Origin: Wocania ichthyoenteri Th78
GTDB lineage: Bacteria > Bacteroidota > Bacteroidia > Flavobacteriales > Flavobacteriaceae
Assembly (NCBI RefSeq): GCF_000789235.1
Contig: NZ_KN525716.1
Coordinates: 1,713,674-1,777,673 of the forward strand
Reading direction: 5' to 3'
DNA: 64,000 nucleotides
In this document: piece by piece, positions 26,351 through 60,228 of the stretch
Layout of the letters: every line of letters starts with the position of its first letter
How positions within the stretch are numbered: the first letter of the stretch is position 1
Program-made: the position numbers and the translations under genes
The notes under the pieces: model-generated
Databases searched by the model: none
Told to the model about the DNA's origin: nothing
What the model saw: only the letters and a program-made list of their open reading frames with translations

Positions 26351-26395
26351 CAAGATTATCAAATAAAAAACAAGTTTGTATCCTGTACTGTGCTG
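26351..26395 (-). promoter_or_regulatory. PUL promoter module 1, for the beta-helix gene
   Basis: On the minus strand, CAGCACAGTACAGGATA (26395-26379) is followed after exactly 20 nt by TAATCTTG (26358-26351), close to the flavobacterial -7 box TANNTTTG. It points at the beta-helix gene starting at 26181, with a predicted leader of about 165 nt. It forms an inverted pair with module 2, centres 32 bp apart. Confidence 0.75.
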
Positions 26396-26410
26396 TAGAA
26401 AATTTAAAAT

Positions 26411-26455
26411 CAGCATAGCACAGGATACTACTCTATTATATGTTTATTATAATTG
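26411..26455 (+). promoter_or_regulatory. PUL promoter module 2, for the sulfatase-GH2 operon
   Basis: CAGCATAGCACAGGATA (26411-26427) is followed after 20 nt by TATAATTG (26448-26455). It points at the sulfatase gene starting at 26558, with a leader of about 100 nt. The stretch after the 17-mer shares TATATGTTTATTAT with module 4. Confidence 0.75.
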
Positions 26456-26557
26456 CCAAGACAAAAGATTGCAAATCAATTCATGGCATTTACAGAAAAA
26501 AAAATTTAATGCGGTTTAGTACACAAACAATTTTTTAATCTCCATAAAAAACATAAA

Positions 26558-27970
26558 ATGAAATTAATTTTACAAACATTTTTAATAGGGTTAGGGTTCT
26601 TAACATTGATAGTGTTTTTTTATAAACCGAGCAATTCAGATGATTCTAACCGTTTAATAAATAATATTTATAAGAAACCAAACATCGTTATAATATTTTT
26701 AGATGATGCTGGTTGGGCAGATTTTGAACCCTTCGATAAATCCATAAGCTATACACCAAATATGAGCCTATTGGCAAAAGAGGCTAGAACATACAATAAT
26801 TTTTATGTTCCACAAGCAGTCTGTTCTGCATCTAGAGCAGCATTATTGACTGGTTGTTATCCTGGTCATACAAAAATCTTTGGAGCTTTAAAGCCTAAAG
26901 AAAAAGGGCTTGACACTAAGTTCCCAACCTTTGGTGAGATTTTTAAATCAAAAGGTTATAAAACAGCAATGTTTGGTAAATGGCATCTTGGAGATACTGA
27001 AGAAACTAGACCATGGAATCGTGGTTTCGATGAGACCGCAGGATTGCTTTACTCCCATGACATGTGGAAGCATCATCCTGATGATCCAAAAACTTGGGGA
27101 AAGTATCCATTACAATTTTGGGAAAATAGTAACATACTTATTGAAAACATGGAGAAAGAAGATCAAAAAAGTCTAACAAAAAGATATACTGACTATGCTG
27201 TTGATTTTATTAAACGCAACAAGAATGAACCTTTCTTACTATATATACCGCACAATATGCCTCATGTCCCGCTTTTTGTTGGCAAAGATTTTGAAGGAAA
27301 GTCTGGTGTAGGTATGTATGGAGATATTATCATGGAATTAGACTGGTCTATCGGACAAATAAATCAAGCTTTAAAAGATAATGGAATTGATGAAAACACA
27401 ATTTTCATAGTAACTTCTGACAATGGCCCATGGCTTTCTTATGGCAACCATAGCGGCAGAACCCCCTTTAGAGAAGGCAAAACCACATCATTTGATGGAG
27501 GTATAAAGTCAGGTTTAATAATAAAATACCCCCAAATGATAAAAGGAGGCGATTTTTCAAACTCAACTTTCTTTTCCATAGATATCTTACCTACCATAAG
27601 CGAACTTGCAGGTATATCCCTTGATAACAATTCAATAGATGGTAAAAGTATGGTAGGTTTATTAAGTGGAAAATCGAATTTTGAAAACCCACATCAGTAT
27701 TATGCTATAAGCAATCTAACAAATTTGGAAGCTGTAATAAGTGGAGATGGCAAGTGGAAACTACATACTAATCATCCATATAGGAACTTGATAAAAAAGG
27801 GAAACGATGGCGAAACTGGTGTTTACAAAGAAAAAGAATTGGAAATATCGCTTTTTGATTTAAAGAATGATCCTTTTGAAAGATTTAATGTTAAAGATAA
27901 ATATCCTGAAATATATAATAAACTTATGGATAACTACAAGGAACATTATGAGAAATTCTACTACAAATAA
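26558..27970 (+). CDS. Family S1 sulfatase (CSASR active site)
   Basis: A type I sulfatase of 470 residues that removes sulfate esters from a carbohydrate. An N-terminal hydrophobic segment (about 1-22) serves for export. The metal-binding start is IVIIFLDDAGWADF, the active-site motif is CSASR at Cys89 with following LLTG, and the later metal site is VTSDNGP (about 288-294). Cys89 must become formylglycine. Alanine replaces proline at the third motif position, as in some S1 subfamilies. It is first in an operon with the GH2 enzyme 70 nt downstream and is headed by PUL promoter module 2. Confidence 0.92.
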   Translation: MKLILQTFLIGLGFLTLIVFFYKPSNSDDSNRLINNIYKKPNIVIIFLDDAGWADFEPFDKSISYTPNMSLLAKEARTYNNFYVPQAVCSASRAALLTGCYPGHTKIFGALKPKEKGLDTKFPTFGEIFKSKGYKTAMFGKWHLGDTEETRPWNRGFDETAGLLYSHDMWKHHPDDPKTWGKYPLQFWENSNILIENMEKEDQKSLTKRYTDYAVDFIKRNKNEPFLLYIPHNMPHVPLFVGKDFEGKSGVGMYGDIIMELDWSIGQINQALKDNGIDENTIFIVTSDNGPWLSYGNHSGRTPFREGKTTSFDGGIKSGLIIKYPQMIKGGDFSNSTFFSIDILPTISELAGISLDNNSIDGKSMVGLLSGKSNFENPHQYYAISNLTNLEAVISGDGKWKLHTNHPYRNLIKKGNDGETGVYKEKELEISLFDLKNDPFERFNVKDKYPEIYNKLMDNYKEHYEKFYYK

Positions 27971-28039
27971 ATTTAAAAAGTATTGTTTTTTTGCAAAATA
28001 TCTAAAATAATTCCATCCATATTTTAGCATAAACTTAAA

Positions 28040-30484
28040 ATGAAAAAAAATTACATTTTATACCTAGCAACAATTATTCTAAGTATCAATACTATTGTAT
28101 TTGGGCAAACAAGAAAAGTTAGAACGGTAAAGGAATTGGATGAAAATTGGAAATTCCAAAAAGGAGATTTTGAAAAGGCTCATCAAATTAATTTTGATGA
28201 TTCAAAATGGGAAACCGTTACAGTACCGCACGATTGGGCAATTTATGGGCCTTTTGATAAGGAAATAGACATCCAAAGAGTTGCCATAGAGCAAAATGGG
28301 GAAACAGTCCCAACAGAAAAAACGGGTAGAACGGGTGCTTTGCCACACATTGGTACAGCTTGGTACAGAAATAAATTTAGTATCCCTGAATTCACAAAAG
28401 ATAAAAAAGTTATTCTGCTTTTTGAAGGCGCTATGAGCGAACCACAAGTTTATCTTAATGGTGAAAAAGTGGGCGAATGGGCTTATGGTTATAGTTATTT
28501 TTATTTTGATGTGACAGATTTTGTAAACGCCGATGAAAACACATTAGCCGTAAAATTACATAATGAACCCTATGCATCACGTTGGTATCCTGGTGCGGGA
28601 TTATATAGAAAGGTATCAGTAATAGTTAAAAACAAAGAAAGTATCAACCAATGGGGAACATTTATCACAACACCTTTTATAAGCAAAGATTTAGCAAAAG
28701 TCAATATCAAGACAAAAATAACAGGAGAAAATACTTCGCTTATAACCACCATTTTTGATGCTGAAGGGAACAAAATCAACTCAAATACATCAACAACTAA
28801 GTTTGTTAACGAATTCGACCAAAACATAAAGGTTGACAATCCAAAATTATGGAGTCCAGAATCCCCTTATTTATACAAGGCTGTTTCAAAATTATTCGTA
28901 GGAGATGAGTTGAAAGATGAAGTCACTACACGTTTTGGAATAAGGGATATAAAATATGATGCAGAAAACGGGTTTAGTCTAAATGGAAAAGTAACAAAAT
29001 TTAAAGGCGTTTGTTTGCATCACGATTTAGGTCCACTGGGAACAGCAGTTAATAAGGCAGCATTAAAACGACAACTAATCATTTTAAAAGATATGGGTGC
29101 CAATGCGGTACGTAGCGCGCACAATATGCCATCGCTAGAGCAGTTAGAACTTTGTGATGAAATGGGGCTTTTATTTTTAGCAGAAAGCTTTGACGAATGG
29201 AAAAAACCAAAAGTAAAAAATGGCTATAATCGTTTTTTTGATGACTATGCAGAAAAAGACATTGTGAATTTGGTTCATGCTACAAGAAACCACCCAAGTA
29301 TTGTTATGTGGAGCGCTGGGAACGAAGTACCTGATCAATGGGGTGATGAAGGCGTAAAACGTGCCAAATGGATACAAGAAATTTTCCATCGGGAAGACCC
29401 AACGCGTCCAGTAACAGTTGGTATGGATCAAGTTGAGGCGGTTATGGAATCTGGCTTTGGAGCTTTGTTGGACGTTCCTGGGCTAAACTACAGAGTGCAT
29501 TTATATGAAGATGCTTTTAAAAAATTCCCACAAGGATTTCTTTTGGGCTCAGAAACAGCTTCAACTGTTAGTTCAAGAGGTGTTTATAAATTTCCAGTAG
29601 AAAAAGCGTCCATGAAAACGTATGATGATTTTCAATCATCCTCTTACGATTTAGAGTATTGCAGTTGGTCAAATTTACCAGATGATGATTTTGTGTTGCA
29701 AGATGATAAGCCTTGGGTAATTGGAGAGTTTGTTTGGACAGGTTTTGATTATTTAGGAGAGCCTACGCCTTATGATGAGATGTGGCCTTCACGTAGTTCG
29801 TATTTTGGAATTTCCGACTTAGCAGGATTGCCAAAAGACCGTTTTTATTTATACAGAAGCAGATGGAATACAGAAGATGAAACGCTTCATATTTTGCCTC
29901 ATTGGAATTGGGAAGGTCGTGAGGGCGAAACAACCCCTATTTTTGTGTACACCAATTATGATTCTGCTGAACTTTTCATTAATGGCAAAAGTATGGGAGT
30001 TCAAAAAAAGAACAATTCAACGCCACAAAACAGATACCGCCTCATGTGGATGGATGTAAAATACGAACCAGGAACCGTAAAAGTTGTAGCGTTTGATAAA
30101 GATGGAAAACCTGTCGCACAAAAAGAAATTAAAACAGCAGGAAAACCTTATAAAATAGTGTTGAACCCCGATAGAAAAACTATTAAAGCAGATGGAAAAG
30201 ATTTGTCTTATGTTGAGGTTTCCATGGTTGATAAAAATGGCATTCCCTGTCCGACTGCGACCAATCAATTAAATTTTAAAGTATCTGGTAAAGGAAAATA
30301 CAGAGCGGCTTGTAATGGTGACGCCACGTCTTTAGAACTATTTCATTTACCCACCATGAAACTCTTTAGCGGGAAATTGGTAGTATTGGTACAATCTACA
30401 AAAGAAGTAGGAGAAATGGAACTCATAGTTTCAGGAAAAAGTCTTAAGCCTGCTTCAATAAAATTTAAAACAAAATTCAAATAG
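28040..30484 (+). CDS. GH2 glycoside hydrolase (beta-galactosidase/glucuronidase type)
   Basis: An exported 814-residue retaining beta-glycosidase. It has a signal peptide ending TIVFGQ (1-23), a jelly-roll sugar-binding domain (about 30-200), an Ig-like domain (about 205-310) and a TIM barrel (about 315-600). The likely acid/base is Glu429 in WSAGNEVPD, and the likely nucleophile is Glu505 in LLGSETAS. C-terminal Ig-like domains complete the chain. Sugar specificity (galactose, glucuronic acid or other) cannot be read reliably. It follows the sulfatase by 70 nt and shares its promoter module. Confidence 0.9.
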   Translation: MKKNYILYLATIILSINTIVFGQTRKVRTVKELDENWKFQKGDFEKAHQINFDDSKWETVTVPHDWAIYGPFDKEIDIQRVAIEQNGETVPTEKTGRTGALPHIGTAWYRNKFSIPEFTKDKKVILLFEGAMSEPQVYLNGEKVGEWAYGYSYFYFDVTDFVNADENTLAVKLHNEPYASRWYPGAGLYRKVSVIVKNKESINQWGTFITTPFISKDLAKVNIKTKITGENTSLITTIFDAEGNKINSNTSTTKFVNEFDQNIKVDNPKLWSPESPYLYKAVSKLFVGDELKDEVTTRFGIRDIKYDAENGFSLNGKVTKFKGVCLHHDLGPLGTAVNKAALKRQLIILKDMGANAVRSAHNMPSLEQLELCDEMGLLFLAESFDEWKKPKVKNGYNRFFDDYAEKDIVNLVHATRNHPSIVMWSAGNEVPDQWGDEGVKRAKWIQEIFHREDPTRPVTVGMDQVEAVMESGFGALLDVPGLNYRVHLYEDAFKKFPQGFLLGSETASTVSSRGVYKFPVEKASMKTYDDFQSSSYDLEYCSWSNLPDDDFVLQDDKPWVIGEFVWTGFDYLGEPTPYDEMWPSRSSYFGISDLAGLPKDRFYLYRSRWNTEDETLHILPHWNWEGREGETTPIFVYTNYDSAELFINGKSMGVQKKNNSTPQNRYRLMWMDVKYEPGTVKVVAFDKDGKPVAQKEIKTAGKPYKIVLNPDRKTIKADGKDLSYVEVSMVDKNGIPCPTATNQLNFKVSGKGKYRAACNGDATSLELFHLPTMKLFSGKLVVLVQSTKEVGEMELIVSGKSLKPASIKFKTKFK

Positions 30485-30671: not shown

Positions 30672-30716
30672 CAGCACAGTACAGGATACTTCATCTCCAA
30701 CTATTCTTTAATATTG
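30672..30716 (+). promoter_or_regulatory. PUL promoter module 3, for susC-susD
   Basis: CAGCACAGTACAGGATA (30672-30688) is followed after 20 nt by TAATATTG (30709-30716). It points at the SusC gene at 30850, with a leader of about 130 nt. The rest of the 30485-30849 gap holds no reading frame I would call. Confidence 0.78.
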
Positions 30717-30849: not shown

Positions 30850-33800
30850 ATGAATGAAATTGTCTACCCTAATCCAATTAAGGATAAACACACTTTCCCT
30901 TTAGGCTCTCTACTAGTTGTAAGAATACTTCTAGTACTTATTGGATTCGGTTTGGGTTCGGTCTATGCAAGTCCAAAAATTAATATAGAACCAGTAGAAT
31001 TAGTACAACAAGGATTTGCTGTTTCTGGAAATATATCCGATAGCAATGGACAACCATTACCAGGAGCTAGTATTATTGAAAAGGGGACCTCAAATGGAGT
31101 GACTACTGATTTTGATGGTAATTTTACTATTACAGTTTCAAGCAATAACGCAACATTAGTTATATCTTATATAGGATACGCAACAAAAGAGATTCCAGTA
31201 AACAATCAAGCAAAATTATCTATTCTACTTCAAGAGGATACTTCAAAACTAGACGAGGTAGTGGTTATTGGATATGGTACTTCTCGCAAAAGTGATTTAA
31301 CAGGTGCTGTAGCTTCTGTAAATGTTGATGATGTAGAAAAAATACCTACATCATCGATTACTCAAAATTTAGCTGGTAGAGTATCTGGCGTTAATGTGAC
31401 ATCAAATTCTGGTGCACCTGGTGCAGGTGTAACAATAAGAATTAGAGGAACTAATTCATTACAAGGTAATAATGACCCTTTATTTGTTATTGATGGTATT
31501 CCAGTAGAATCATCACCAGAGCAAAACGGTGATTTTTCAGCTGATGCCTTATCAGGTATCAATCCAGAAGACATTGAGTCTATGGAAATACTAAAAGACG
31601 CTTCTGCTGTAGCTATATATGGTTCTCGAGGTGCTAATGGTGTAGTACTAATAACCACAAAATCTGGGAAATCTGGGAAAACCAAAGTAAAAATCAACCA
31701 GTATTACGGTATACAAAGAGAAATGAGGCAATACGATGTACTTAGCCCTGGTGAGTTTGCAAGATTTAGAAATATTGCCATACTAAACGCTAATAATAGC
31801 CAGAATGGATTTGTCCCATATTCTCCAGAAGAAATTGCTGATTTTGATGCAGGTATAGCTGGAACTAATTGGAGAGATGAAATTATTAGAGAAGCTGAAA
31901 TAAGAGATACTCAGCTTAACGTCTCTGGCGGAAGTGAAAACCTTACCTATTTTTTCTCTTTAGGAAATTTTAAGCAAGATGGTCTTATTAGAGGTTCTGG
32001 TTTTAACCGCTATTCAACTAAACTATCAATAGATGGCAACATTAGTGAGAAATTAAGATTTGGAACTGATTTCACCTTTAGCCAGTCAGAATATGAAGGT
32101 GCTTTTGGTAATAGTAGTATTAATAGTTATAGTGGAGGTTATATAGATGCTTATTCACCACCACCTACATTCCCTGTTAAAGATGAAAATGGTGACTATA
32201 TCTCAGAAAATCCTTTTTCTACTTTTCCTTTTCCTAATCCTGTCGAAAATGCTTTAGAAATTGTAAGAGATCAAACTAATCTAAATTTTTTGGGAAATGT
32301 TTTTTTAGAATATGATCTTACAAATTCCTTAAAAATCAAACAAATAGTTGGTGTTAATTACACTTCTAATAATGTAAGGCAATATCTACCAAGTTTTTCT
32401 CAACGAAGTCAATTTAAAGGTGAAGCCCGTCAAGCTCATTCTCTAAATAGAAACATACTCAGTACAACAACTCTAAGTTTTGATAAAAAGGTTGATAAAC
32501 ACAGATTTAATGGAGTACTTGGATATGAGATTCAAACTAGAGAAAACCAAAATTTTAACGGAACTTCAAGAGACTTCGCTAACGATGAGACTGGATACTA
32601 CAGCTTAGAAAGTGGAAAAGAGCTTTTTTCTCTGAACTCTGCATACATTGATCAAGGATTGCAATCTTATTTAGGACGTTTCAATTACAATTATCACAAT
32701 CGTTATTTTTTAACACTTACAGGCAGATATGATGGCTCATCAAAATTTCAAGGTAATAACAAATACAGTTTTTTCCCTTCTGCAGCCTTAGCATGGAGAA
32801 TTTCCAACGAAAAGTTTCTTAAAAATTCAAAGACCATTAACAATTTAAAACTTCGTGGTAGTTATGGACAAACAGGAAGTCAAGCTATTGATCCCTACCG
32901 TACTTTAGCGGTAATTCAAGCAAATACTTTTGGGACTGTAGATGGTAACGGCACCACACTATCTTATAGTCCTAGTAGAATACCAAGTTCTAATTTAAAA
33001 TGGGAGACAACTGAGCAATTTGATGCTGGTATTGATATTGGCTTATTATCAGGTAAAATAAATTTAACAATAGACTATTTTTACAAAACAACCACAGACT
33101 TATTACTCGATTTCCCATTACCAATTACATCTGGATTTAGTAGCGTATTAAAAAATTCTGGTTCAATAAGAAACAAAGGGTTAGAATTCTCATTAAATAC
33201 TATTAACTTTAACAAAGAGGACTTTTCATGGGATACAAATTTTAATATAAGTTTTATCGACAATGAAATTTTAGATTTAGGAGGCAGGCCTTTTTTAATT
33301 AGAGCTCCAGAAGTTCCAAGAGCTTTTGGAACCAATTCATTTAATGTTGGTATTACAAGAGTTGGTCAACCACTTGGGGACTTCTTTGTTTTAGAAAACG
33401 ATGGTATCATTATGAATCAGGATGAACTTGATGCTGCTGCACAATATGGAACTATTGATATAGGTACTAAAAGATATGTGGACCAAAATGAAGATGGTAT
33501 GATTAATGCAGAAGACCGTATAGTAGCAGGAAACGCTCAACCCGATTTTACAGGTGGTTTAGTTAATAATTTAAAATACAAACAGTTCGACTTAAGTTTC
33601 TTTTGGGAATTTACTTACGGAGGGGATGTATTGAATGTAACCCGTTACTATTTAGAAAGGCCCACAGCGGCTACTAATGTAACAAGATCATATTATAACA
33701 ATTTTTTTGGAAGCCCTAATCCAAATTCTTCCAATACATACTGGAAGCCAGACACAGGAAGCTCCCAACTTTCAATAGATGATAGTTATATAGAAGACGG

Positions 33801-34044
33801 ATCTTATGCCAGATTAAAAAATATAACCTTAGGGTATTCCTTACCAAAAGATTTGCTAAAAAAAATAAATATGTCCAGATTGAGAATATACGTCAATGCA
33901 AATAACCTTTGGACAATAACTAATTATACAGGACTAGACCCAAATACAAATGTTTTTGGAGGTAATGAATATGGAGTTGGCATAGATTACAGTGCTTATC
34001 CAACCCCCACTACAATGACATTAGGTGTAAATTTAGAATTTTAA
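30850..34044 (+). CDS. SusC-like TonB-dependent glycan transporter
   Basis: An outer-membrane importer of 1064 residues. After an N-terminal export segment (about 22-42) comes a carboxypeptidase-regulatory-like domain (VSGNISDSNGQPLPGASIIEKGTS, about 56-79). A TonB-box-like SKLDEVVVIGYG (about 130-141) and the plug domain with VIRIRGTNS-like TIRIRGTNSLQGNNDPLFVIDG follow, then a 22-strand barrel to the C-terminal aromatic-rich end. It pairs with the SusD protein 10 nt downstream to capture and import oligosaccharides with energy from TonB. Confidence 0.96.
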   Translation: MNEIVYPNPIKDKHTFPLGSLLVVRILLVLIGFGLGSVYASPKINIEPVELVQQGFAVSGNISDSNGQPLPGASIIEKGTSNGVTTDFDGNFTITVSSNNATLVISYIGYATKEIPVNNQAKLSILLQEDTSKLDEVVVIGYGTSRKSDLTGAVASVNVDDVEKIPTSSITQNLAGRVSGVNVTSNSGAPGAGVTIRIRGTNSLQGNNDPLFVIDGIPVESSPEQNGDFSADALSGINPEDIESMEILKDASAVAIYGSRGANGVVLITTKSGKSGKTKVKINQYYGIQREMRQYDVLSPGEFARFRNIAILNANNSQNGFVPYSPEEIADFDAGIAGTNWRDEIIREAEIRDTQLNVSGGSENLTYFFSLGNFKQDGLIRGSGFNRYSTKLSIDGNISEKLRFGTDFTFSQSEYEGAFGNSSINSYSGGYIDAYSPPPTFPVKDENGDYISENPFSTFPFPNPVENALEIVRDQTNLNFLGNVFLEYDLTNSLKIKQIVGVNYTSNNVRQYLPSFSQRSQFKGEARQAHSLNRNILSTTTLSFDKKVDKHRFNGVLGYEIQTRENQNFNGTSRDFANDETGYYSLESGKELFSLNSAYIDQGLQSYLGRFNYNYHNRYFLTLTGRYDGSSKFQGNNKYSFFPSAALAWRISNEKFLKNSKTINNLKLRGSYGQTGSQAIDPYRTLAVIQANTFGTVDGNGTTLSYSPSRIPSSNLKWETTEQFDAGIDIGLLSGKINLTIDYFYKTTTDLLLDFPLPITSGFSSVLKNSGSIRNKGLEFSLNTINFNKEDFSWDTNFNISFIDNEILDLGGRPFLIRAPEVPRAFGTNSFNVGITRVGQPLGDFFVLENDGIIMNQDELDAAAQYGTIDIGTKRYVDQNEDGMINAEDRIVAGNAQPDFTGGLVNNLKYKQFDLSFFWEFTYGGDVLNVTRYYLERPTAATNVTRSYYNNFFGSPNPNSSNTYWKPDTGSSQLSIDDSYIEDGSYARLKNITLGYSLPKDLLKKINMSRLRIYVNANNLWTITNYTGLDPNTNVFGGNEYGVGIDYSAYPTPTTMTLGVNLEF

Positions 34045-34054
34045 AAAATAAATT

Positions 34055-35521
34055 ATGAAAAATTATAATTATAATACTTTACCAATAAAATACGTTTTAC
34101 TTTTCCTAACTTTCATTTTTATTTCTTGTGAAGATATAGTGGAAGAAGACCCTAAAGGATTACTTAGTTCAAGTAATTTTTGGAATAATGAAGTTAATGC
34201 AATTGGTGCCATAAATGCTGTATACACAAAACCTTTAGAGATGCCTGCTGCAGTACATGGGTGGAATTTTTGGTTTGAAAGTGCGGGAGGAGACTTTGGT
34301 TGCTTAGATACCCATGGTACTGGTATGGCTAATGGTACTTGGTCTGTATCAATTAATAGGGTTTATAATATGTGGAGGGCTAGTTATGAACCTATTAGTT
34401 TAGCAAATTTTGTACTTTCCAACATAAAGACAGCTACCAACATAGACCCCAATTTACAGTTGAGAATAGAAGGAGAAGCAAGTTTTTTACGTGCTTTTCA
34501 CTATTTTAATTTAGTACGGAATTTTGGAGATGTTCCACTAATTTTAAAACAGACTGAAGGAGATGATGACTTTTTGGTAACCCGTACCCCTGTCTCTCAG
34601 GTTTATGATGCCATTATAAGTGATCTAACCCTTGCGATAGACCAATTACCTCTAAAAAGTGAGTACAGTGAAGAAGATTTAGGTAGAGCATCTAAAGGTG
34701 CTGCGCAAGCAATGTTAGCTAAAGTATACCTTACACTAGGGGATTATCAAAAAACTGTAGATCTCACTAATGAGGTTATGCTGTCAAGCGTGTATAGCCT
34801 TGAGCCCGATTTTAAGGATATTTTCACAGCTGAAAGGGATAATGGTTCAGAATGGTTGTTTTCATATGCAACCAGTGGAGAATCTGAATTCAGCACACAT
34901 CAATTGGCTCAATTTGGTTTTCCAAATAATTTAGGGAAATTTGGATTTACTAGAGCCTTTGGGAATATCTGGGTTAAACAACCCCTTTTGGATATATATG
35001 ACCAAGTGAATGATACACGATTTACTGATATGATTTGGAAGGAATACGTTGATCCTATTACTGGAGAAGTGGTAGCCTTTAGGAAAGGTACTGGGTACTA
35101 TAGTAAAAAATATGATGACATCGAGTTTTCAAAAGATATGCTTTTTACAAGAATAAACTATCCAATATTAAGATATTCTGATGTACTATTAATGTATGCT
35201 GAGGCTCTAAATGAAGTTTCACCTTTAAACGATGATGCTTTCAATAAATTAAATATGGTTAGAAACAGGGCTAATCTTGGAGATATCACCATAGCCGAAC
35301 TCGATTCACAACAAGCTTTCACTAATGAAGTTCTTGATGAAAGAAGGCGTGAATTTGTCAACGAAAACCAAAGAGTATTTGATTTGAAGAGACGTGGATT
35401 GTTCTTGGATTTTGTTCAACAACTACCATATTCACAATTTTCAGAGGAAGACGTACTTTACCCAATTCCACAAGCTGAAATTGATGCAAATCCAAATTTA
35501 ACTCAAAACCCAGGATACTAG
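34055..35521 (+). CDS. SusD-like glycan-binding lipoprotein
   Basis: A 488-residue surface lipoprotein that caps the SusC barrel and binds glycan. The lipoprotein signal ends LTFIFISC at about residue 25. TPR-like helices of the RagB/SusD family include LRIEGEASFLRAFHYFNLVRNFGDVPLI, RASKGAAQAMLAKVYLTLGDY and the C-terminal RNRANL...DERRREFVNENQRVFDLKR signature. It starts 10 nt after the SusC stop and is followed by two hairpins. Confidence 0.95.
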   Translation: MKNYNYNTLPIKYVLLFLTFIFISCEDIVEEDPKGLLSSSNFWNNEVNAIGAINAVYTKPLEMPAAVHGWNFWFESAGGDFGCLDTHGTGMANGTWSVSINRVYNMWRASYEPISLANFVLSNIKTATNIDPNLQLRIEGEASFLRAFHYFNLVRNFGDVPLILKQTEGDDDFLVTRTPVSQVYDAIISDLTLAIDQLPLKSEYSEEDLGRASKGAAQAMLAKVYLTLGDYQKTVDLTNEVMLSSVYSLEPDFKDIFTAERDNGSEWLFSYATSGESEFSTHQLAQFGFPNNLGKFGFTRAFGNIWVKQPLLDIYDQVNDTRFTDMIWKEYVDPITGEVVAFRKGTGYYSKKYDDIEFSKDMLFTRINYPILRYSDVLLMYAEALNEVSPLNDDAFNKLNMVRNRANLGDITIAELDSQQAFTNEVLDERRREFVNENQRVFDLKRRGLFLDFVQQLPYSQFSEEDVLYPIPQAEIDANPNLTQNPGY

Positions 35522-35553
35522 GGTAAAAACTCTACATGTAGTTTAGTTTATTT

Positions 35554-48787: not shown

Positions 48788-48822
48788 TATTAAATCCAAT
48801 ACTAATTTTAAAATAACCAAAT

Positions 48823-51246: not shown

Positions 51247-51291
51247 CAGCACAGTACAGGATACATTACTTTTCTCAATTTCCTATTATTG
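51247..51291 (+). promoter_or_regulatory. PUL promoter module 5, for the small secreted protein
   Basis: CAGCACAGTACAGGATA (51247-51263) is followed after 20 nt by TATTATTG (51284-51291). It points at the gene starting at 51411, with a leader of about 115 nt. It is divergent from module 4 within a 632-bp gap that otherwise shows no reading frame. Confidence 0.77.
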
Positions 51292-52715: not shown

Positions 52716-54122
52716 TCATGATAGATGAAAATATTTACTAAAAATTAAAAATAGAACTCCACATAACAACCATGCAGGCAGTGTTACAAACGATAGAAAT
52801 ACACCAAATTGAACGGATATAAAATAGAATATACCAAAACTTAATGCCCAAGCCAATAGAACAGATTTATTAAACCTGATGTTTGCTTGTTCAGCATAAT
52901 TTTTAATTACTCCATACTTTTTGGCAAAGAAATGTTCAAACACAATTACGGCTCCAACAGGTGCTAAAATAAATCCATAAAGGGCAACAAAATCTAATAG
53001 TTGCATTGCAAAAGCAGGAAATAACCCAGCTATAGTTGCAATTGTACCAGCAATAATAGTAACCCAAAACGTTGACGTTTTTGGCATAATAGCTTGAAAA
53101 GCTAAACCTGCTCTATAAATGGTTGGGTTAGCGGTTGTCCAACCAGCTAAAACCACAACTAAAATTCCAAAGATACCAATAGTATTATAAGCCATAGGCC
53201 CTGGTGCTACTGAGGGAGCTCCACCACTAGACACAATAGCTTGTGCTTCAGGCGATTTTAAATAAACAGCATACATTAAACATGCAGCTATCCACGCCAT
53301 GTAATGACCTACGTACATTCCTGCTGCGGTTGTCCAGCCAGAACTTGCTTTTTTAGCAAAGCGGAAAACAGATAAATCTGACATCCCAATATGCATAGCT
53401 CCGTTAGCAAACCACGACCAAATCATAACATGCCAAAATGTATATTTTATTTGTCCAGGAAATGGTTCAGAACCTTCTCCCCAAATATTCCAAAAGTCTG
53501 AAAAACTACTTACACCTAATTGATTTAATGCCACAATTCCACAAATTAAAAACCCAAGAACAATTACTGGTGACATCCAATTGGCTGCTTTCGATACCAT
53601 ATCATAACCACGGGCAGCAATTATAGATATTACAGCTCCAATGGCTAGCACAATAAGAATCCAAGTAATACCATTTGGGAGTGTATCGGTAAGTTTTGGC
53701 ATTGGCATATCAAAAGGAATACCAACAGCAGTGGCTGATACGGTTATCATAGCTCCTGCTAAAAAACAAAACAGAATACCATTTGCTAAATTGTAACCAA
53801 CAACTAACTTTTTACCACAAATTTTTTCCAATTGGTAATAAAGTGTTAATCTATTTTTAACGGCAATTTCAGCAGCTAAAAAACGCCAAGATAAAACAGC
53901 CAATAGGTTTCCTAACAGTAGCCCAATAATTAAATCGAAAGCGCTTACACCTGTTGTTAAAAATAGGGGGCCAATAACAAACTCGGTTCCTGCAGCATGT
54001 TCGCCTGCATACATACCAAGAAAACTTTTCCAGCTTTTAAGTTTTGATTCAGGAACTGGCGTTCTTTCAAATTCACCTCCTGCGATATCTTCTATTTCTT
54101 CTTCTATATTAAATTGGCTCAT
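52716..54122 (-). CDS. NCS1/CodB-type membrane transporter in the rhamnose operon
   Basis: A 468-residue inner-membrane protein with about 12 hydrophobic segments, resembling the purine-cytosine permease (NCS1/CodB-like) superfamily (FIGPLFLTTGVSAFDLIIGLLLGN, SATAVGIPFDMPMPK, GWTTANPTIYRAGLAFQAI). It is last in the rhamnose operon, 36 nt after lldD, and no other sugar importer is found here. Its cargo is more likely L-rhamnose or a product of the pathway than a nucleobase. That is inference from context. Confidence 0.8.
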   Translation of the reverse strand: MSQFNIEEEIEDIAGGEFERTPVPESKLKSWKSFLGMYAGEHAAGTEFVIGPLFLTTGVSAFDLIIGLLLGNLLAVLSWRFLAAEIAVKNRLTLYYQLEKICGKKLVVGYNLANGILFCFLAGAMITVSATAVGIPFDMPMPKLTDTLPNGITWILIVLAIGAVISIIAARGYDMVSKAANWMSPVIVLGFLICGIVALNQLGVSSFSDFWNIWGEGSEPFPGQIKYTFWHVMIWSWFANGAMHIGMSDLSVFRFAKKASSGWTTAAGMYVGHYMAWIAACLMYAVYLKSPEAQAIVSSGGAPSVAPGPMAYNTIGIFGILVVVLAGWTTANPTIYRAGLAFQAIMPKTSTFWVTIIAGTIATIAGLFPAFAMQLLDFVALYGFILAPVGAVIVFEHFFAKKYGVIKNYAEQANIRFNKSVLLAWALSFGIFYFISVQFGVFLSFVTLPAWLLCGVLFLIFSKYFHLS

Positions 54123-54158
54123 GGTTTAGTTGGTTTTTAAATTATTGTTATGGAAATC

Positions 54159-55307
54159 TTATTTGATTAAATGGTTAGTAAAATCTGTTGTTTTTTCGCA
54201 ACAAAGTTGTTCCATAACCTGTTGTAATTCTGTTTTTAATAATGAAACGGTGTGGTTTCCTCCTTTTTTTCCTAAAGCTGAAACGCCGTACATAAACGAA
54301 CGTCCCATAAAAGTGAATTTAGCCCCACTTGCCATAGCTCTAGCAACATCAGGACCAGAACGGATACCACTATCCATCATTACTTCAATTTGATCACCGT
54401 ATTTTTCAGCAATAGTTGACAAAGGTTTTATAGTTGACTGTCCAGCATCTAATTGTCTACCACCATGATTTGACACAATAATACCATCCAAGCCTAAACG
54501 TATAACCTCTTCAGCATCATATTCAGATGCAACGCCTTTTATTACCAATTTGCCTTTCCACATATCTCTTATTGGTTTTATTTTTTCTTCGTTTAATCGG
54601 CCACTAAACGTTTGATCCATGAATTTACCAAGTTGTTTTAAGTCTAACCCCTTTGGCATGTAAGGTTTTAAGGTTTCAAAATTGGGTTGTCCATATTTTA
54701 AAGTTTCAAACGCCCAATGAGGTTTACCTAAAATTTGCAGAATATTTTTTATAGACATTTTTGGAGGCATTGCCAGCCCATTTCTTATATCCCTTGGTCT
54801 AAAACCAAATGTTGGTACATCGCACAAAATAACCAAAACAGGACATTCTGCTGCGGCTGCTCGATTTATAATATCATCGCGCAATCTGTCTTCAGCTGGG
54901 TGATACAATTGAAACCAAGCTTTACCTTCGGTTAATTCGCTAGCACGTTCAATACTCATAGTAGTTACGGTGCTTAAAATAAAAGGGATGTTATGTTCAA
55001 AGGCGGCTTTTGCTAGTATTTCTGGTGAATTGGGCCACATTAAACCTTGTAACCCAACAGGTGCAATTCCAAATGGTGCATCATATTCTATACCAAATAA
55101 ACTGGTTTTAAGTGATGAGCCTTTATGGTTTCTTAAATAGTTTGGTTTTAATTGTACTTCTCTTAATTCAGATGTGTTTCTGTGTAAATTAACATCTTCA
55201 TTACAGCCACCATCCAAATACTCAAAAGCAAACTTTGGAATTTTTGTTTGTGCCTTATTTCTTAAATCATCAATCGATGGATAACGTGTGTCAAACTTTA
55301 TTGCCAT
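54159..55307 (-). CDS. lldD: FMN-dependent L-lactate dehydrogenase
   Basis: Oxidises L-lactate to pyruvate and passes electrons to the respiratory chain. The 382-residue alpha-hydroxy-acid dehydrogenase has FDTRYPSIDDLRNKAQ at the start, FMN contacts such as APVGLQGLMWP, the catalytic-base signature GIIVSNHGGRQLDAGQST (about 274-291) and MMDSGIRSGPDVARAMASGA (about 308-327). In this operon it would consume the L-lactate made by RhaEW. It is separated from the kinase by 4 nt and from the transporter by 36 nt. Confidence 0.9.
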   Translation of the reverse strand: MAIKFDTRYPSIDDLRNKAQTKIPKFAFEYLDGGCNEDVNLHRNTSELREVQLKPNYLRNHKGSSLKTSLFGIEYDAPFGIAPVGLQGLMWPNSPEILAKAAFEHNIPFILSTVTTMSIERASELTEGKAWFQLYHPAEDRLRDDIINRAAAAECPVLVILCDVPTFGFRPRDIRNGLAMPPKMSIKNILQILGKPHWAFETLKYGQPNFETLKPYMPKGLDLKQLGKFMDQTFSGRLNEEKIKPIRDMWKGKLVIKGVASEYDAEEVIRLGLDGIIVSNHGGRQLDAGQSTIKPLSTIAEKYGDQIEVMMDSGIRSGPDVARAMASGAKFTFMGRSFMYGVSALGKKGGNHTVSLLKTELQQVMEQLCCEKTTDFTNHLIK

Positions 55308-55311
55308 AATA

Positions 55312-56682
55312 TTATTTTATTATGAATGGGACATGTTTTTTTAACGAATAATTCTTTTTTAGAAACTTTGAGTTCAACTTTTTATCAGAAATACAAATTG
55401 CAGCACCTAAAGCAGACCCTAGTGAAGAATCTGTAGTTCTCAATTTCTTATCTCTAAAATAATGCGATAACAGTTTGATATAAAGATCATTATCACTAAA
55501 ACCACCATCAACATATAAGCGGTTAATGTCATCATCACCAATAACTTCTTTTATGTTTTTTATTTGTAGTAATACTAACTCAAGCATAAGTTGATGATAG
55601 GCATGTTCAAATTTATCATAAGGTATTTTTGTTTCCTCGGGCATTTCTGAATCTGTAATGCTTTCCCATTTAAACATATGTTCAAAATCTTGAAGAATCT
55701 CAAAATAGGTGTCATAATCAAACTTTACATGTCTGTGATACTCTTCAGACACCCCATAAAGTTTATCTAATTTTTTTACTTGTAATTTATACTCATTACC
55801 CAAAAATAAACGTGTTGCTTTTACGGGTTTTCCGTTTATCCTCATGTAATTTATAGAATCCTTATCTTCAGTATTTTCAGCAATTGGCCTATCAGTAAAA
55901 GGATTTAAGGCAATACTCCAAGTTCCTGTGGAAACTAAAACAAATTTTTTCTTTATGCTTCTAACATAGGGCAAAAGCGCAGATGAACTATCGTGAATAC
56001 CTACCCCAATTTTAATACGCTTACCATTATAATTCATATTAATACTTGTTTCGGTTGAAACTATGGTGGGTAAAATTTGGTGCAAATTTTCTTTATAAAC
56101 CCAAGTGTGATAATCTTTCTTTGTATAATCCCAAAGTGCCGTGTGGCAACCTATACTTGTATATTCACTTAAAGGAATACCCGTGAAAATGTAACTTAAG
56201 TATTGTGGTAAATGTAAAGAGTACTTAATTTTTTTAAATGTTTCTGGTTTGGCATGTTTTATCCAGTACAGCTGTAAACCAGAGTTTAAAAGACTTAAAT
56301 CAAAACAGCCTGTAGTTTTTAAGAAGTCTTTTCTTGGTCCATATTCTTCTACAAAGGAATCAATAACACTTTTATCAATTGGTTTTGTATAATTATATAA
56401 TGGCGTTAAAACATCGCCATTTTCATCTAAATGCACAAAACTTGCCCCGTATGACGAAAAGTTTATGGCTTGTACATTAAATTCTGAAGCTTCAAGAATA
56501 TTAGCAAAAACACTTTTTAGCCATTTTTGTAGCTCAGGCAAATTTTCGGTTGGGTAACCATCTTCGTCCTTAATTTCTTCAAAAGAAATATATTCTTTAT
56601 AAACTTCTTTGTAATCTTTATCAAAGAGGAAGAATTTTTTATTGGTTTTACCAATATCAAAAACAGCAGTTACATCTATCAT
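55312..56682 (-). CDS. rhaB: FGGY-family rhamnulokinase
   Basis: A 456-residue FGGY carbohydrate kinase predicted to phosphorylate L-rhamnulose at O1. The N-terminal phosphate loop FDIGKTNKKFFLFD (about 8-21), FVLVSTGTWSIALNP (about 245-259) and the C-terminal nucleotide-binding YVDGGFSDNDLYIKLL (about 388-403) are present. Assignment to rhamnulose rests on its place between rhaI (10 nt upstream) and lldD (4 nt downstream); FGGY specificity is hard to read from sequence. Confidence 0.85.
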   Translation of the reverse strand: MIDVTAVFDIGKTNKKFFLFDKDYKEVYKEYISFEEIKDEDGYPTENLPELQKWLKSVFANILEASEFNVQAINFSSYGASFVHLDENGDVLTPLYNYTKPIDKSVIDSFVEEYGPRKDFLKTTGCFDLSLLNSGLQLYWIKHAKPETFKKIKYSLHLPQYLSYIFTGIPLSEYTSIGCHTALWDYTKKDYHTWVYKENLHQILPTIVSTETSINMNYNGKRIKIGVGIHDSSSALLPYVRSIKKKFVLVSTGTWSIALNPFTDRPIAENTEDKDSINYMRINGKPVKATRLFLGNEYKLQVKKLDKLYGVSEEYHRHVKFDYDTYFEILQDFEHMFKWESITDSEMPEETKIPYDKFEHAYHQLMLELVLLQIKNIKEVIGDDDINRLYVDGGFSDNDLYIKLLSHYFRDKKLRTTDSSLGSALGAAICISDKKLNSKFLKKNYSLKKHVPFIIK

Positions 56683-56691
56683 AAAAAGCGA

Positions 56692-57972
56692 TTATAATCC
56701 TGTGGCTACCGTATTTTTACCACGTTCATTAATTAGTTCGTTTCTAACATTTAAAGTTCTGTAGGCATTTATGGGGTTTAGCGCTCCTCCAGCATCTAAA
56801 CGTGCTTTTTCCAGCAACGGGCGAACATCGGTTCTATACGCATCTTGTAAAATCTCTTGGCATTTCACAACATCGTTATTTTGTTGAGCATCTTTCAAAT
56901 CATCTTGATTAATCAAAAGTGCTTTTGCATAGGCTTCTTGTATAGCTTCAAGTGATTGAATTAAATCTTCTAAAGGATCTTTTACATTATGGCTAGCATC
57001 TATCATCCACGCTAAATCTGGATTTTGTGGATTGTTTTGCATACCGTAAACCAATTCATTGAAAATTAAGAATAAGGCATAAGGCTTAATGCTTCCAACG
57101 GTTAAATCGTCATCACCATATTTACTATCATTAAAATGAAAACCACCTAACTTACCCTTAAGCATTAAAATGGAAACAATTTGCTCGATATTGCTATTAG
57201 GTAAATGGTGCCCTAAATCGACCAGCGAATATGCTTTTTCTCCACATGCATTTGCCAACATAAACGATGTTCCCCAATCTTGAATTACTGTGCTATAGAA
57301 GTTTGGCTCGTAAGGTTTGTATTCAATAAGCATGCTCCAATCGTTTGGCAAACCTTTGTATATTTCTTTTAAACTGTTTTCGGTATGTTGAAGTGCGGTT
57401 TGAAAATTATTCTGCCCAGGAAAACACGAACCATCTGCCAACCAAACGGTTAAGCTTTTTGAACCTAGTTTATTCCCAATATTTATAACATCTAGATTAT
57501 GTTGAATAGCTTGTTCTCTAACAGCTTTACTTGTATTACTTAAAGAACCATATTTATAAGATTCTTTTGCGTTTTTTTGATCTTGAAATGTGTTGGAGTT
57601 AACCGCATCGAACTTTATATTTAAGCTATTGGCTAATTCTTTAATAGCGTTGTAATCATCAGGAACATCCCAAGGAATATGAAGCGAAACAGCACCAGCT
57701 GTTTGTGTTAAACTATGAAGGATTCCAATATCTTGAATTTTTTGTTCTAAGTTTGAAGGCTCTCCGTAGAATGAAAAACGCCCAAAACGTGTTCCCCCAG
57801 CACCTAATGCCCAACTTGGTATGGCTACTTGAAAATCTTTTAACTTAGAAATGATATTATTTACGTCAACTCCTTTACTTGTTAGCACATCTGAAAGAAA
57901 ATCAAAATGGCTTTGATGCGCTTTAAGGTGCGTACTGTTTATATCTTGAATTTGACCGTTATCTATTTTCAT
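56692..57972 (-). CDS. rhaI: L-rhamnose isomerase (RhaI type)
   Basis: Converts L-rhamnose to L-rhamnulose. The 426-residue protein is of the RhaI class (Pseudomonas stutzeri-like, distinct from E. coli RhaA): a xylose-isomerase-like TIM barrel with WALGAGGTRFGRF, SLHIPWDVP, LIEYKPYEPNFYSTVIQDWG, LVDLGHHLPNSNIEQ, GGFHFNDSKYGDDDL and WMIDASHNVKDP, which hold the metal-binding Glu, Asp and His residues. It lies 82 nt after rhaEW. Confidence 0.9.
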   Translation of the reverse strand: MKIDNGQIQDINSTHLKAHQSHFDFLSDVLTSKGVDVNNIISKLKDFQVAIPSWALGAGGTRFGRFSFYGEPSNLEQKIQDIGILHSLTQTAGAVSLHIPWDVPDDYNAIKELANSLNIKFDAVNSNTFQDQKNAKESYKYGSLSNTSKAVREQAIQHNLDVINIGNKLGSKSLTVWLADGSCFPGQNNFQTALQHTENSLKEIYKGLPNDWSMLIEYKPYEPNFYSTVIQDWGTSFMLANACGEKAYSLVDLGHHLPNSNIEQIVSILMLKGKLGGFHFNDSKYGDDDLTVGSIKPYALFLIFNELVYGMQNNPQNPDLAWMIDASHNVKDPLEDLIQSLEAIQEAYAKALLINQDDLKDAQQNNDVVKCQEILQDAYRTDVRPLLEKARLDAGGALNPINAYRTLNVRNELINERGKNTVATGL

Positions 57973-58054
57973 ATATTACTTTTTATAAAAAAACTCCCAT
58001 ATATACTTTAATATGCTATGGAAGTTTTTAACTAAACAAACTAACTCAATAATT

Positions 58055-60160
58055 TTATCTTACAAATGCATTGGCCATACCACCATCTACATTTATAATG
58101 TTTCCAGTTGTTTTATCTAAAATGGCAACTAAAGAGAATACACCATTAGCAATATCTTCTGGATATATGATTTCGTTTAATAAATTTCTTTTTGCATAAT
58201 GTGCCGGTAGTTCTTCAACTGATATACCATAGGCTTTCGCACGACCTTCAGCCCAATCACCTTCCCAAATTTTACTGCCTACTATAACCCCATCAGGATT
58301 CACTACATTTACTCGTATTTTATCCGAAGCCAATTCTACAGCCAATAAACGGGACATATGTTGTTGGGCAGCCTTAGCTGTACCATAGCCTACATTATTT
58401 GGTCCGGAAACCAATCCGTTTTTACTGGCAATACTTATAAAGTTACCACCTAAATTTTGCTTACGCATGATTTCAACACCTGCTTTAGCCAATTCAAACT
58501 GACCTTTGACCAATACATTTTGTAAAATGTCCCAATCTTTTTCGGTAGTTTCTTCAATAGGTTTTGAAATTGCCAAACCAGCACTGTGAACAATGATGTC
58601 TATCCCCCCAAATTCAACACATGCTTTTTTATAAGCATTTATAATAGATTTGTTGCTAGTAACATCACAAACAGCATAGGTTGAAACATCACGTTTGTAT
58701 GTTGCATTGGCTTCTTTTAAACTATCTTCATTAATATCTGTTAACACAACGTTGGCTCCTTCAGCTGCTAATTTATCGGCAATTGCTTTACCAATTCCAC
58801 CACCACCACCAGTAACCAAAGCTACTTTACGTGATAATGGTTGCTCTTTTGGCATACGTTGTAATTTAGCTTCCTCCAATAACCAATATTCAATGTCAAA
58901 CGCTTCTTGCCTTGGCAAAGATGTATATTCAGTAATGGCTTCTGCACCACGCATGACGTTAATTGCATTGATGTAAAACTCACTTGCCACACGTGTTGTT
59001 TGTTTGTTTTTTGCAAAACTGAACATGCCAACTCCAGGGTAAATAATGATTACGGGGTTTGGATCACGCATTGCAGGACTATTATCTCTTTTACAAGTAT
59101 TATAGTAGTCTGCATATTCTTTTCTGTATTGTTCGAAAGCAGGTTCTAATTTAGCAAGTACAGCATCGGCATCTGATAAATCTTCTTTAGGATCTAATGT
59201 TAATACTAAAGGCTGAATTTTTGTACGTAAGAAGTGGTCTGGACAAGACGTTCCCATTGGCGCTAAACGTTCTAAATCATTACTGTTGATGTATTCCATC
59301 ACCACATCTCTATCGTCAAAATGTCCAATCATTCTATTTTCAGAAGAGCATAAACCCCTTAATAAGGGCATTAATTGTGCTGCTTTTTCTAAACGTTCTT
59401 CTTTTGGAAGACTTTTTACTTTTTGTCCACCAAAAACTTCACCTTGTTCTTTTATTTTCTTTTCAATGTATTCAGAAGCCATTTCAATAACTTCTAAACT
59501 ATTCATGTAACATTCGTAAGACGTATCTCCCCAAGTAAATAAACCGTGGCTTCCTAAAACAATACCTCTAATTCCAGGGTTATCGTTCAAACATTTTTCA
59601 AGTTGAAGTCCTAAATCAAAACCTGGACGTTGCCAAGGCACCCATCCCATACTATCACCCCAAATTTCTTTGGTTACCTTTTCACTATCTTTTGCCGCAG
59701 CAACGGCAATAAGTGCATCTGGATGCAAATGATCAATATGTGCAAATGGTAATAACCCGTGAAGTGGCGTATCAATTGAAGGTGCTTTACTATCTAAATC
59801 ATAAATACAATGGTTGAAAAGACCGACCATTCTATCTTCATCATCTAAACCTCCATAAACATTTTTCAAATCACGTAATCTGCCAGTATATAAACCGGCA
59901 ATTCCCGAACGTGTTAATGTGCCAATATCTCCTCCTGAGCCTTTAACCCACATAACTTCAACATTCTCGTTTGTTAAGGGGTCTTTTTCAATGGTTTTAC
60001 AACTTGTATTACCTCCGCCGTAATTGGTTATTCTTAAATCTGCTCCTAATATATTCGAGCGGTACAAAAATAAAGCTACTTGGTCATCACCTAAATCGTT
60101 AGCTTTCTTTTCATCCCATAGATAGTCTACGTAATTAAACTTTTTTGTTAGTGTATTCAT
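58055..60160 (-). CDS. rhaEW: Rhamnulose-1-phosphate aldolase/lactaldehyde dehydrogenase fusion RhaEW
   Basis: A two-domain enzyme of about 701 residues. The N-terminal class II aldolase half splits L-rhamnulose 1-phosphate to DHAP and L-lactaldehyde, with the zinc-binding HIDHLHPDALIA (about 140-151) and GSHGLFTWG. The C-terminal half (from about 440) is a short-chain dehydrogenase, with VALVTGGGGGIGKAIADKL and the catalytic YGTAKAAQQHMSRL (Tyr-x3-Lys), that oxidises lactaldehyde to L-lactate. A start at 60169 is possible, but the Met at 60160 suits promoter module 6, which lies very close. It is first in the operon. Confidence 0.9.
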   Translation of the reverse strand: MNTLTKKFNYVDYLWDEKKANDLGDDQVALFLYRSNILGADLRITNYGGGNTSCKTIEKDPLTNENVEVMWVKGSGGDIGTLTRSGIAGLYTGRLRDLKNVYGGLDDEDRMVGLFNHCIYDLDSKAPSIDTPLHGLLPFAHIDHLHPDALIAVAAAKDSEKVTKEIWGDSMGWVPWQRPGFDLGLQLEKCLNDNPGIRGIVLGSHGLFTWGDTSYECYMNSLEVIEMASEYIEKKIKEQGEVFGGQKVKSLPKEERLEKAAQLMPLLRGLCSSENRMIGHFDDRDVVMEYINSNDLERLAPMGTSCPDHFLRTKIQPLVLTLDPKEDLSDADAVLAKLEPAFEQYRKEYADYYNTCKRDNSPAMRDPNPVIIIYPGVGMFSFAKNKQTTRVASEFYINAINVMRGAEAITEYTSLPRQEAFDIEYWLLEEAKLQRMPKEQPLSRKVALVTGGGGGIGKAIADKLAAEGANVVLTDINEDSLKEANATYKRDVSTYAVCDVTSNKSIINAYKKACVEFGGIDIIVHSAGLAISKPIEETTEKDWDILQNVLVKGQFELAKAGVEIMRKQNLGGNFISIASKNGLVSGPNNVGYGTAKAAQQHMSRLLAVELASDKIRVNVVNPDGVIVGSKIWEGDWAEGRAKAYGISVEELPAHYAKRNLLNEIIYPEDIANGVFSLVAILDKTTGNIINVDGGMANAFVR

Positions 60161-60183
60161 TAGTGTCATTAAAATATTACATG

Positions 60184-60228
60184 CTAATGTATATTAAGAT
60201 TAGTAAGTTTCTATCCTGTACTATCCCG
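60184..60228 (-). promoter_or_regulatory. PUL promoter module 6, for the rhaEW operon
   Basis: On the minus strand, CGGGATAGTACAGGATA (60228-60212) matches the other copies at 14 of 17 positions and is followed after 20 nt by TACATTAG (60191-60184). The predicted transcript start lies about 10-20 nt before the rhaEW start codon. It is the weakest copy but ties the catabolic operon to the PUL. Confidence 0.65.

Follow-up and report, generated by a model that had tools for sequence, protein, structure and literature searches.

The window analysed here, a stretch of 64,000 nt from the 3.95 Mb genome of Wocania ichthyoenteri Th78 (contig NZ_KN525716.1, assembly GCF_000789235.1), holds a polysaccharide utilisation locus (PUL) and an operon for rhamnose catabolism that includes rhaEW. 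Six transcription units at this locus, five belonging to the PUL and the sixth being the rhaEW operon, are each faced by one copy of the same promoter element, which an initial annotation made from the DNA letters had recognised as a 17-mer. A gene divergent from rhaEW encodes a candidate regulator that combines a GntR winged helix with a LacI/periplasmic-binding-protein-like domain. We consider it quite probable that the 17-mer is the operator of this GntR-type rhamnose regulator, which would activate transcription from a class-II-like position and thereby switch rhaEW and the PUL together. The operators, the -7 boxes of their promoters and the genes concerned are the following (GH, glycoside hydrolase; CBM, carbohydrate-binding module; T9SS, type IX secretion system; FMN, flavin mononucleotide).

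26378-26395 (-): operator 1, CAGCACAG-TA-CAGGATAC, facing the beta-helix gene
26351-26358 (-): -7 box of the operator 1 promoter, TAATCTTG
26411-26428 (+): operator 2, CAGCATAG-CA-CAGGATAC, facing the sulfatase-GH2 pair
26448-26455 (+): -7 box of the operator 2 promoter, TATAATTG
30672-30689 (+): operator 3, CAGCACAG-TA-CAGGATAC, facing susCD
30709-30716 (+): -7 box of the operator 3 promoter, TAATATTG
51003-51020 (-): operator 4, CAGCACAG-CA-CAGGATAC, facing the run of genes from GH127 to GH99-like
50976-50983 (-): -7 box of the operator 4 promoter, TATTCTTG
51247-51264 (+): operator 5, CAGCACAG-TA-CAGGATAC, facing the CBM gene
51284-51291 (+): -7 box of the operator 5 promoter, TATTATTG
60211-60228 (-): operator 6, CGGGATAG-TA-CAGGATAG, facing rhaEW
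60184-60191 (-): -7 box of the operator 6 promoter, TACATTAG
60398-61444 (+): candidate regulator, divergent from rhaEW
23467-26181 (-): operator 1 target, secreted beta-helix protein (Pect-lyase_RHGA_epim, T9SS tail)
26558-30484 (+): operator 2 targets, sulfatase (26558-27970) and GH2 (28040-30484)
30850-37750 (+): operator 3 targets, SusC-like, SusD-like and melibiase-like proteins
37797-50778 (-): operator 4 targets, seven co-directed genes for GH127, GH3, three sulfatases, a sulfatase-GH78 fusion (39043-41979) and a WbsX/GH99-like protein
51411-52196 (+): operator 5 target, CBM_4_9 protein with T9SS tail
52716-60169 (-): operator 6 targets, co-directed rhamnose operon with rhaEW, an L-rhamnose isomerase-like protein, an FGGY kinase, an FMN-dependent L-lactate dehydrogenase-like protein and a 468-aa NCS1-like protein

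Six copies of a proposed operator in one genome

The six 17-mers lie at the positions and on the strands that the initial annotation had given, with 0, 2, 0, 1, 0 and 3 mismatches for operators 1 to 6. Its further claims about their arrangement also hold: exactly 20 nt separate each copy from the 8-mer listed as its -7 box, and each faces a single gene start, with 198, 131, 162, 226, 148 and 43 nt from the end of the motif to the start codon. The conserved site proved to be one base longer than the 17-mer, namely 18 bp with a final base that is mostly G or C. The copy at rhaEW (CGGGATAG-TA-CAGGATAG, box TACATTAG) is the divergent one of the six.

Among 100 shuffled windows, the mean number of 17-mer matches was 0.06 and the largest 1, as opposed to 6 in the real window. 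Genome-wide, the 17-mer had nine matches at up to 3 mismatches, the six window copies and three others, and the reversed-pattern control had two. Two of these extra matches, which carry 3 mismatches and lie outside the window, have no TA at N20 (20 nt behind the 17-mer); the third (G000:C1:2607859-2607875 (-), locus L008) has TATATTTA at N20, scores 9.2 on the site matrix and lies inside a 297-aa open reading frame (ORF). The composite of site and box, AGNACAGGATA-N20-TANNNTNG, matched the genome perfectly at six places, all inside the window, and at none with 1 mismatch; at 2 mismatches there were 26 matches, and the reversed pattern gave 23 at up to 2 mismatches. The genome scan proposed in the initial annotation did not return many matches at unrelated genes, and the six-copy pattern is real and far beyond chance.

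Co-occurrence of motif and regulator

We compared 397 genomes of the family, counting as regulator orthologs proteins with about 52% identity or more to the product of 60398-61444. Such orthologs occur in 79 genomes, and the composite motif at up to 1 mismatch in 78, with 5 matches in the reversed control. Both are present in 71 genomes, the ortholog alone in 8, the motif alone in 7 and neither in 311. The motif is accordingly found in 71 of 79 genomes with the ortholog versus 7 of 318 without it (Fisher p about 1e-60, uncorrected for kinship), and 211 of the 219 composite sites fall in ortholog-bearing genomes. This co-occurrence bears out the suggestion that the 60398-61444 protein is the probable reader of the motif.

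Ninety-four genomes carry rhaEW, including 78 of the 79 with the ortholog; the one that lacks it, G295, has a completeness of 76%. Within the rhaEW-bearing group, the motif occurs in 71/78 with the ortholog versus 3/16 without (p about 1e-8). Because the motif follows the ortholog even within this group, we favour the reading that it belongs to the regulator rather than merely to the rhamnose genes. The same association, computed for the GntR gene, argues against the idea that another regulator, for example of the AraC type or a hybrid two-component system (HTCS), reads the site and that the GntR gene is present through linkage alone. Direct repeats, the architecture described below, are a common target of AraC-type regulators. 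In Bacteroides thetaiotaomicron, RhaR is of the AraC type (PMC3878776). Against such a reader also stand the half-site sequence, which varies with the GntR clade within a constant 10-bp architecture, and the repeats of Bacteroides HTCS, which are about 21 bp apart and not 10 (PMC3878776). We therefore regard it as very improbable. A scan of 30 window proteins encoded from 14849 to 63210 detected no AraC domain.

To look at rhaEW promoters as such, we collected 80 distinct upstream regions from 77 of the 79 ortholog genomes, leaving out G005 (rhaEW at a contig edge), G295 (no rhaEW) and copies with less than 80 nt of upstream DNA. Sites, defined by a matrix score of at least 14, and rhaEW upstream regions were filtered to distinct sequences before counting. 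A site is present in 78 of the 80 regions, 77 of these 78 with TA exactly at N20, at a median of 55 nt before the start codon. In the two regions that lack one (G152, G341), rhaT is placed before rhaEW and the site lies upstream of rhaT. A k-mer count that made no use of the motif ranked ACAGGATA (52) and TACAGGAT (51) as the top 8-mers of the 80 regions, where the shuffle maximum was 16. Genomes without a 52%-identical regulator have a site in 2 of 16 rhaEW upstream regions, and in both of these genomes a GntR gene (40-44% identity) lies about 130 nt or less from rhaEW.

Genes downstream of the sites in other genomes

Matrix sites in the compared genomes precede genes for RhaEW (103 in the main cluster), RhaT (43) and a GDSL esterase-like family (20), as well as SusC-like proteins, GH106 and GH78 rhamnosidases, sulfatases, GH39 and an MFS sugar transporter. 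They also precede genes at L266:191-1198, L181:10494-11894 and L261:3988-4725, which encode fructose-1,6-bisphosphatase, glucuronate isomerase and, below cut-off, a subunit with weak resemblance to L-lactate dehydrogenase LdhH, respectively, and which suggest an extension of the regulon to gluconeogenesis and uronate use. For several downstream genes, the family assignment was uninformative. Pfam was scanned with 45 of the 58 cluster representatives of downstream genes, the other 13 being RhaEW, SusC, GntR or window genes by blastp. One match (L070, in G030, which has neither rhaEW nor a regulator match) with an HTCS gene downstream was taken as chance. Judged by family annotation, the downstream gene content is that expected of a rhamnose regulon. 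The initial annotation had proposed that a shared promoter module joins the PUL to rhamnose catabolism, and this is upheld by the specificity of the motif within the genome, its conservation at rhaEW and rhaT, and the rhamnose-related targets elsewhere.

Architecture of the proposed operator and promoter geometry

By its letter pattern, which the initial annotation did not remark on, the 17-mer consists of two 8-bp half-sites directly repeated at a 10-bp step, head to tail and one helical turn apart: CAGkAyAG-TA-CAGGATAG. The letter matrix of 213 boxed sites has a self-correlation of 0.83 at lag 10 and 0.71 at lag 5, and the gap between the half-sites is TA in 146 of the 213. A palindromic operator with a GTACNGTAC core was rejected, since the best inverted correlation is 0.59 versus 0.83 for the direct repeat at lag 10. 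A triple repeat of period 5 was likewise set aside as the functional unit: the lag-5 correlation of 0.71 is real, but arrays in 10-bp steps all end at one distance from the box, which is why we take the half-site as 8 bp every 10 bp.

The distance to the box is almost fixed. When 120 sites were gathered without demanding a box, 101 matched the box at N20 in at least 4 of its 5 letters, and the next best spacing had 15; among 288 matrix sites, 203 have their best box at N20. The proximal half-site lies 19 nt from the -7 box TAnnTTTG, and all six arrays of 3-4 half-sites in the fetched loci end 19 nt before this box, with the extra half-sites upstream. Two matrix matches fall inside ORFs of at least 300 aa, and reversed sequences give 4 matches. 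A constant distance between site and -7 box is reminiscent of a two-part promoter, and one might think of a non-regulatory repeat or of an extended promoter for an alternative sigma factor. We find this hardly credible, as the -7 box is the housekeeping TAnnTTTG and an 18-bp, high-information direct repeat that occurs mainly at rhamnose genes and tracks one regulator is not a sigma element.

In Flavobacterium psychrophilum, the sigma-A box TAnnTTTG is located at -12 to -5 (PMC9723704). With this numbering, which places transcription starts by transfer and not from this genome, the 18-mer would span about -49 to -32 with its centre at about -40.5. Class-II activator sites are centred near -41.5, and the -33 element of Bacteroidota sigma-A promoters contains TTG. 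At the -33 distance, TTG occurs in 3 of 213 promoters versus 20 of 213 in an equal window farther upstream, a difference partly forced by the motif itself. The initial annotation had put the 17-mer where a -33 element would be, and on these figures the operator indeed appears to occupy the place of that element.

The candidate regulator and its relatives

The DNA-binding domain of the 60398-61444 product matches PF00392 (E 2.6e-11, 43.4 bits, cut-off 27). Its sensor part matches Peripla_BP_3 below the cut-off (23.5 versus 26.5 bits), and the best match of an AlphaFold2 model (mean predicted local distance difference test score 81) in the PDB is to Lac repressor chains (E 1.9e-11). By Pfam at E 1e-3, no AraC, DeoR or LacI helix-turn-helix was found in the protein, which gave GntR and a sub-threshold HTH_41. 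The modelled fold is LacI-like and not the aminotransferase-like sensor of MocR-type regulators, and the NCBIfam PdxR match covers residues 17-90 only (48.5 bits, cut-off 320). As modelled, the LacI-like sensor may sense rhamnose or a product of it.

A tree of 130 GntR proteins places 101 proteins at 52% identity or more, together with two others, in a clade A and 15 in a separate clade C; the ten proteins of clade B are not monophyletic under midpoint rooting, and nothing here rests on their position. In the clade B set, rhaEW is present at nine loci. Of the clade B-related loci scanned, 4 of 11 contain a CAGAACrs-like pair with a 2-nt gap and a TA 19 nt further. Clade C adjoins galK and galT in 15/15 loci, some of which also have a sodium symporter or aldose epimerase, and a CTAGTAGG pair lies upstream of the clade C gene in 14 of 15 regions, all 14 at lag 10, where 0.005 would be expected per set; this word was chosen from the same sequences in which it was counted. 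A k-mer look upstream of galK and galT yielded nothing that we used. As a control, 26 loci around distant GntR proteins had sites in 4, but this set mixes rhamnose-associated clade B with galactose-associated clade C and is no clean negative.

Behind a shared SRDT, the proteins continue with VEKAY (A), IVrAY (B) or VLmAF (C), a helix that we take to be the DNA-recognition helix and that fits the modelled helix 54-66. The shift of site sequence with the neighbouring regulator, at constant architecture, is the strongest indirect evidence from these comparisons that the GntR proteins read the sites. It is an even call whether this extends to a general rule, in which a Bacteroidota subfamily with GntR DNA-binding domain and LacI-type sensor would recognise head-to-tail half-sites in 10-bp steps (CAGGATAG in the case of rhamnose, CAGAACrs for some of clade B and CTAGTAGG in the case of galactose) by a regulator-to-half-site code, with the rhamnose clade acting as class-II activator in place of the -33 element and its sites extendable upstream by one half-site each.

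Several relatives were noted in passing. This genome has its own clade C member beside galK/galT (G000:C1:1190890-1191876; L211:6885-7877), and 14 related loci were seen. Two clade A genes stand side by side in L131, L134, L140, L144 and L146 (genomes G095, G157, G188, G069 and G178, respectively) and are duplicated regulators. Flavobacterium johnsoniae strain CI04 carries a regulator with 78% identity (L352). Clade A-like regulators also occur in families other than this one within the class and order (G585:C11:360-1391 in L385, 67% identity; G040:C1:1281283-1282305 in L387, 60%), which is compatible with horizontal transfer.

Activation or repression

The site, its spacing, its target genes and its dependence on the presence of the regulator can be read from the genomes compared; direct binding, activation, the effector and the mechanics of recruitment are what we infer for the following scheme. 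L-rhamnose or a catabolic intermediate would be sensed by the 60398-61444 regulator, a dimer of which would occupy the head-to-tail pair of half-sites as a class-II-like site replacing the -33 element. From there it would activate the rhaEW operon and the five PUL promoters of this genome, so that degradation of a sulfated rhamnose-glycan and use of the released sugar would be switched on together.

The same regulator and operator could also work by repression, with protein bound over the -33 region blocking RNA polymerase until rhamnose frees the site; the fixed spacing would then arise because the GATA end of the operator doubles as a weak form of the -33 element. Repression is common among sugar regulators of the GntR family, PDB records call AraR a repressor, the title of a cited reference names a GntR alginate repressor of Zobellia, and an operator overlapping -33 would repress. 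Repressor sites, however, need no invariant spacing, and here N20 is the position of the best box for 203 of 288 sites; in addition, the multi-half-site arrays are anchored 19 nt from the box in 6/6 cases, and TTG is nearly absent at the -33 distance (3/213). Because of this near-invariant spacing, the promoter-anchored arrays and the missing -33 element, we place activation well ahead of repression, which we consider unlikely.

Several observations weigh against activation by the GntR protein or against the strength of the counts behind it. Most of the GntR regulators known act as repressors. The sites of this family are as a rule palindromic (PMC4494728), and the present site departs from that pattern (direct 0.83 versus inverted 0.59). 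Seven genomes have the motif without the ortholog, with 1-2 sites each, and eight have the ortholog without the composite at 1 mismatch; seven of these eight carry rhaEW together with a site whose score lies between 15 and 28, and the eighth is G295, which has no rhaEW. No TA at N20 accompanies 75 of the 288 matrix matches. Of these, 43 are rhaT promoters, mostly from Flavobacterium genomes, in which the TA box starts one base further; some of the remainder are register-shifted half-sites of arrays and some are unexplained. In 7 of 11 clade B loci, the B-type pair was not found save for one weak, box-less match. Clade C pairs stand at variable distance from the box, some on the other strand, and a direct repeat near -33 therefore does not by itself prove activation. 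Finally, the site matrix was seeded from the consensus of the initial annotation, and the genomes are related, so that counts are not independent.

Functions encoded at the locus and its surroundings

The rhaEW product matches TIGR02632 with 947 bits (cut-off 568) and NF006191 with 1364 bits (cut-off 1240). The isomerase of the operon is related to L-rhamnose isomerases below the family cut-offs, and the FGGY kinase stays below the rhamnulokinase cut-off. The 468-aa transporter-like protein (52716-54122) has no Pfam match and a weak NCS1 match. In fetched rhaEW loci longer than 9 kb, this protein alone occurs in 52, RhaT alone in 46, both in 0 and neither in 62, counts that are not independent, since some of the loci overlap where one genome was fetched twice. 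Because the two never occur together in rhaEW loci, the 52716-54122 product is a candidate L-rhamnose transporter.

Five PUL promoters with the rhamnose operator, five sulfatase domains in all and, among these, a fusion of sulfatase and GH78 (rhamnosidase) together fit a sulfated rhamnose-containing glycan as PUL substrate, for example ulvan or a sulfated rhamnan. Besides the pectate-lyase-like beta-helix protein, no lyase family was recognised among the scanned PUL proteins, and no CAZy-specific scan was made. The initial annotation had taken the shared switch as direct evidence for rhamnose as a product of the PUL substrate. Co-regulation is indirect evidence of this, not direct; the fusion of sulfatase and GH78 agrees with it.

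Next to the PUL, 16279-22221 encodes an integrase, DUF5906/VapE-like, Toprim/CHC2 primase-like and NikA-like proteins, a MobA-type relaxase and DUF6730, and looks like a mobilisable integrated element. Between it and the PUL, perhaps as a remnant, lies 22866-23216, where an aldose 1-epimerase is represented by its C-terminal piece only (positions 214-299 of a profile of 299). Downstream of the regulator gene, 62380-63210 encodes a protein with an AbiEi antitoxin C-terminal domain.

Implications

PUL substrates are usually guessed from enzyme families. If the proposed reading is true, a promoter tag would mark out the rhamnose-yielding PULs of roughly a fifth of the family genomes sampled (79/397), and the question of ulvan and other rhamnose-glycans would become testable by reading promoters. 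It would also provide a compact, probably rhamnose-inducible promoter for Bacteroidota. The predicted operator, head-to-tail and anchored to the -7 box, is unusual in a family with mostly palindromic sites. Should the subfamily rule hold, its half-site code could predict PUL substrates genome by genome.

Comparison with known systems

In our literature search, for which most subscription papers and RegPrecise lay outside the scope, no GntR rhamnose regulon was found. Known RhaR/RhaS regulons likewise control rha genes, and their DeoR-type motifs are direct repeats with a periodicity of 10-11 bp, but the regulators belong to the AraC, DeoR and LacI types and not to GntR (PMC3870299); the words "GntR" and "Flavobacteri" occur 0 times in the main text of that article. 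XylR-type activators are sugar-responsive, use direct-repeat sites and couple polysaccharide and monosaccharide use in a Vibrio; their DNA-binding domain, joined to a LacI-like sensor, is however of the AraC and not the GntR type (PMC12125979). HTCS/SusR regulons differ in their repeat distance, about 21 bp for HTCS versus 10 bp here, and the present regulator is not of the AraC type.

Within the GntR family, the AraR-type regulators, such as AraR of Bacillus subtilis, share the domain order and the sugar-operon neighbourhood, and the closest PDB sequence match of the candidate is the AraR DNA-binding domain. The AraR operator is a palindrome, whereas the present operator repeats directly every 10 bp and has a fixed, class-II-like position. 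FarR, NagQ, NanR and the MocR-type GabR, TauR and PdxR also set a GntR winged helix on direct repeats, although they belong to the FadR/HutC or MocR subfamilies, and 10-bp pairs at invariant promoter spacing are not described for them in the portions of PMC4494728 drawn on. As direct-repeat GntR regulators exist, the head-to-tail architecture is unusual rather than unheard of. Likened by description and not by homology, FucR (BT1272) and ManR (BT2103) of B. thetaiotaomicron are GntR-family regulators of monosaccharide operons in Bacteroidota, but they serve other sugars, and the workflow of PMC3878776 for this class sought palindromic motifs. Through ManR, a monosaccharide pathway is joined to a SusC/SusD operon (PMC3878776), and control of a PUL and its monosaccharide pathway by one regulator, as proposed here for rhamnose, is thus already known.

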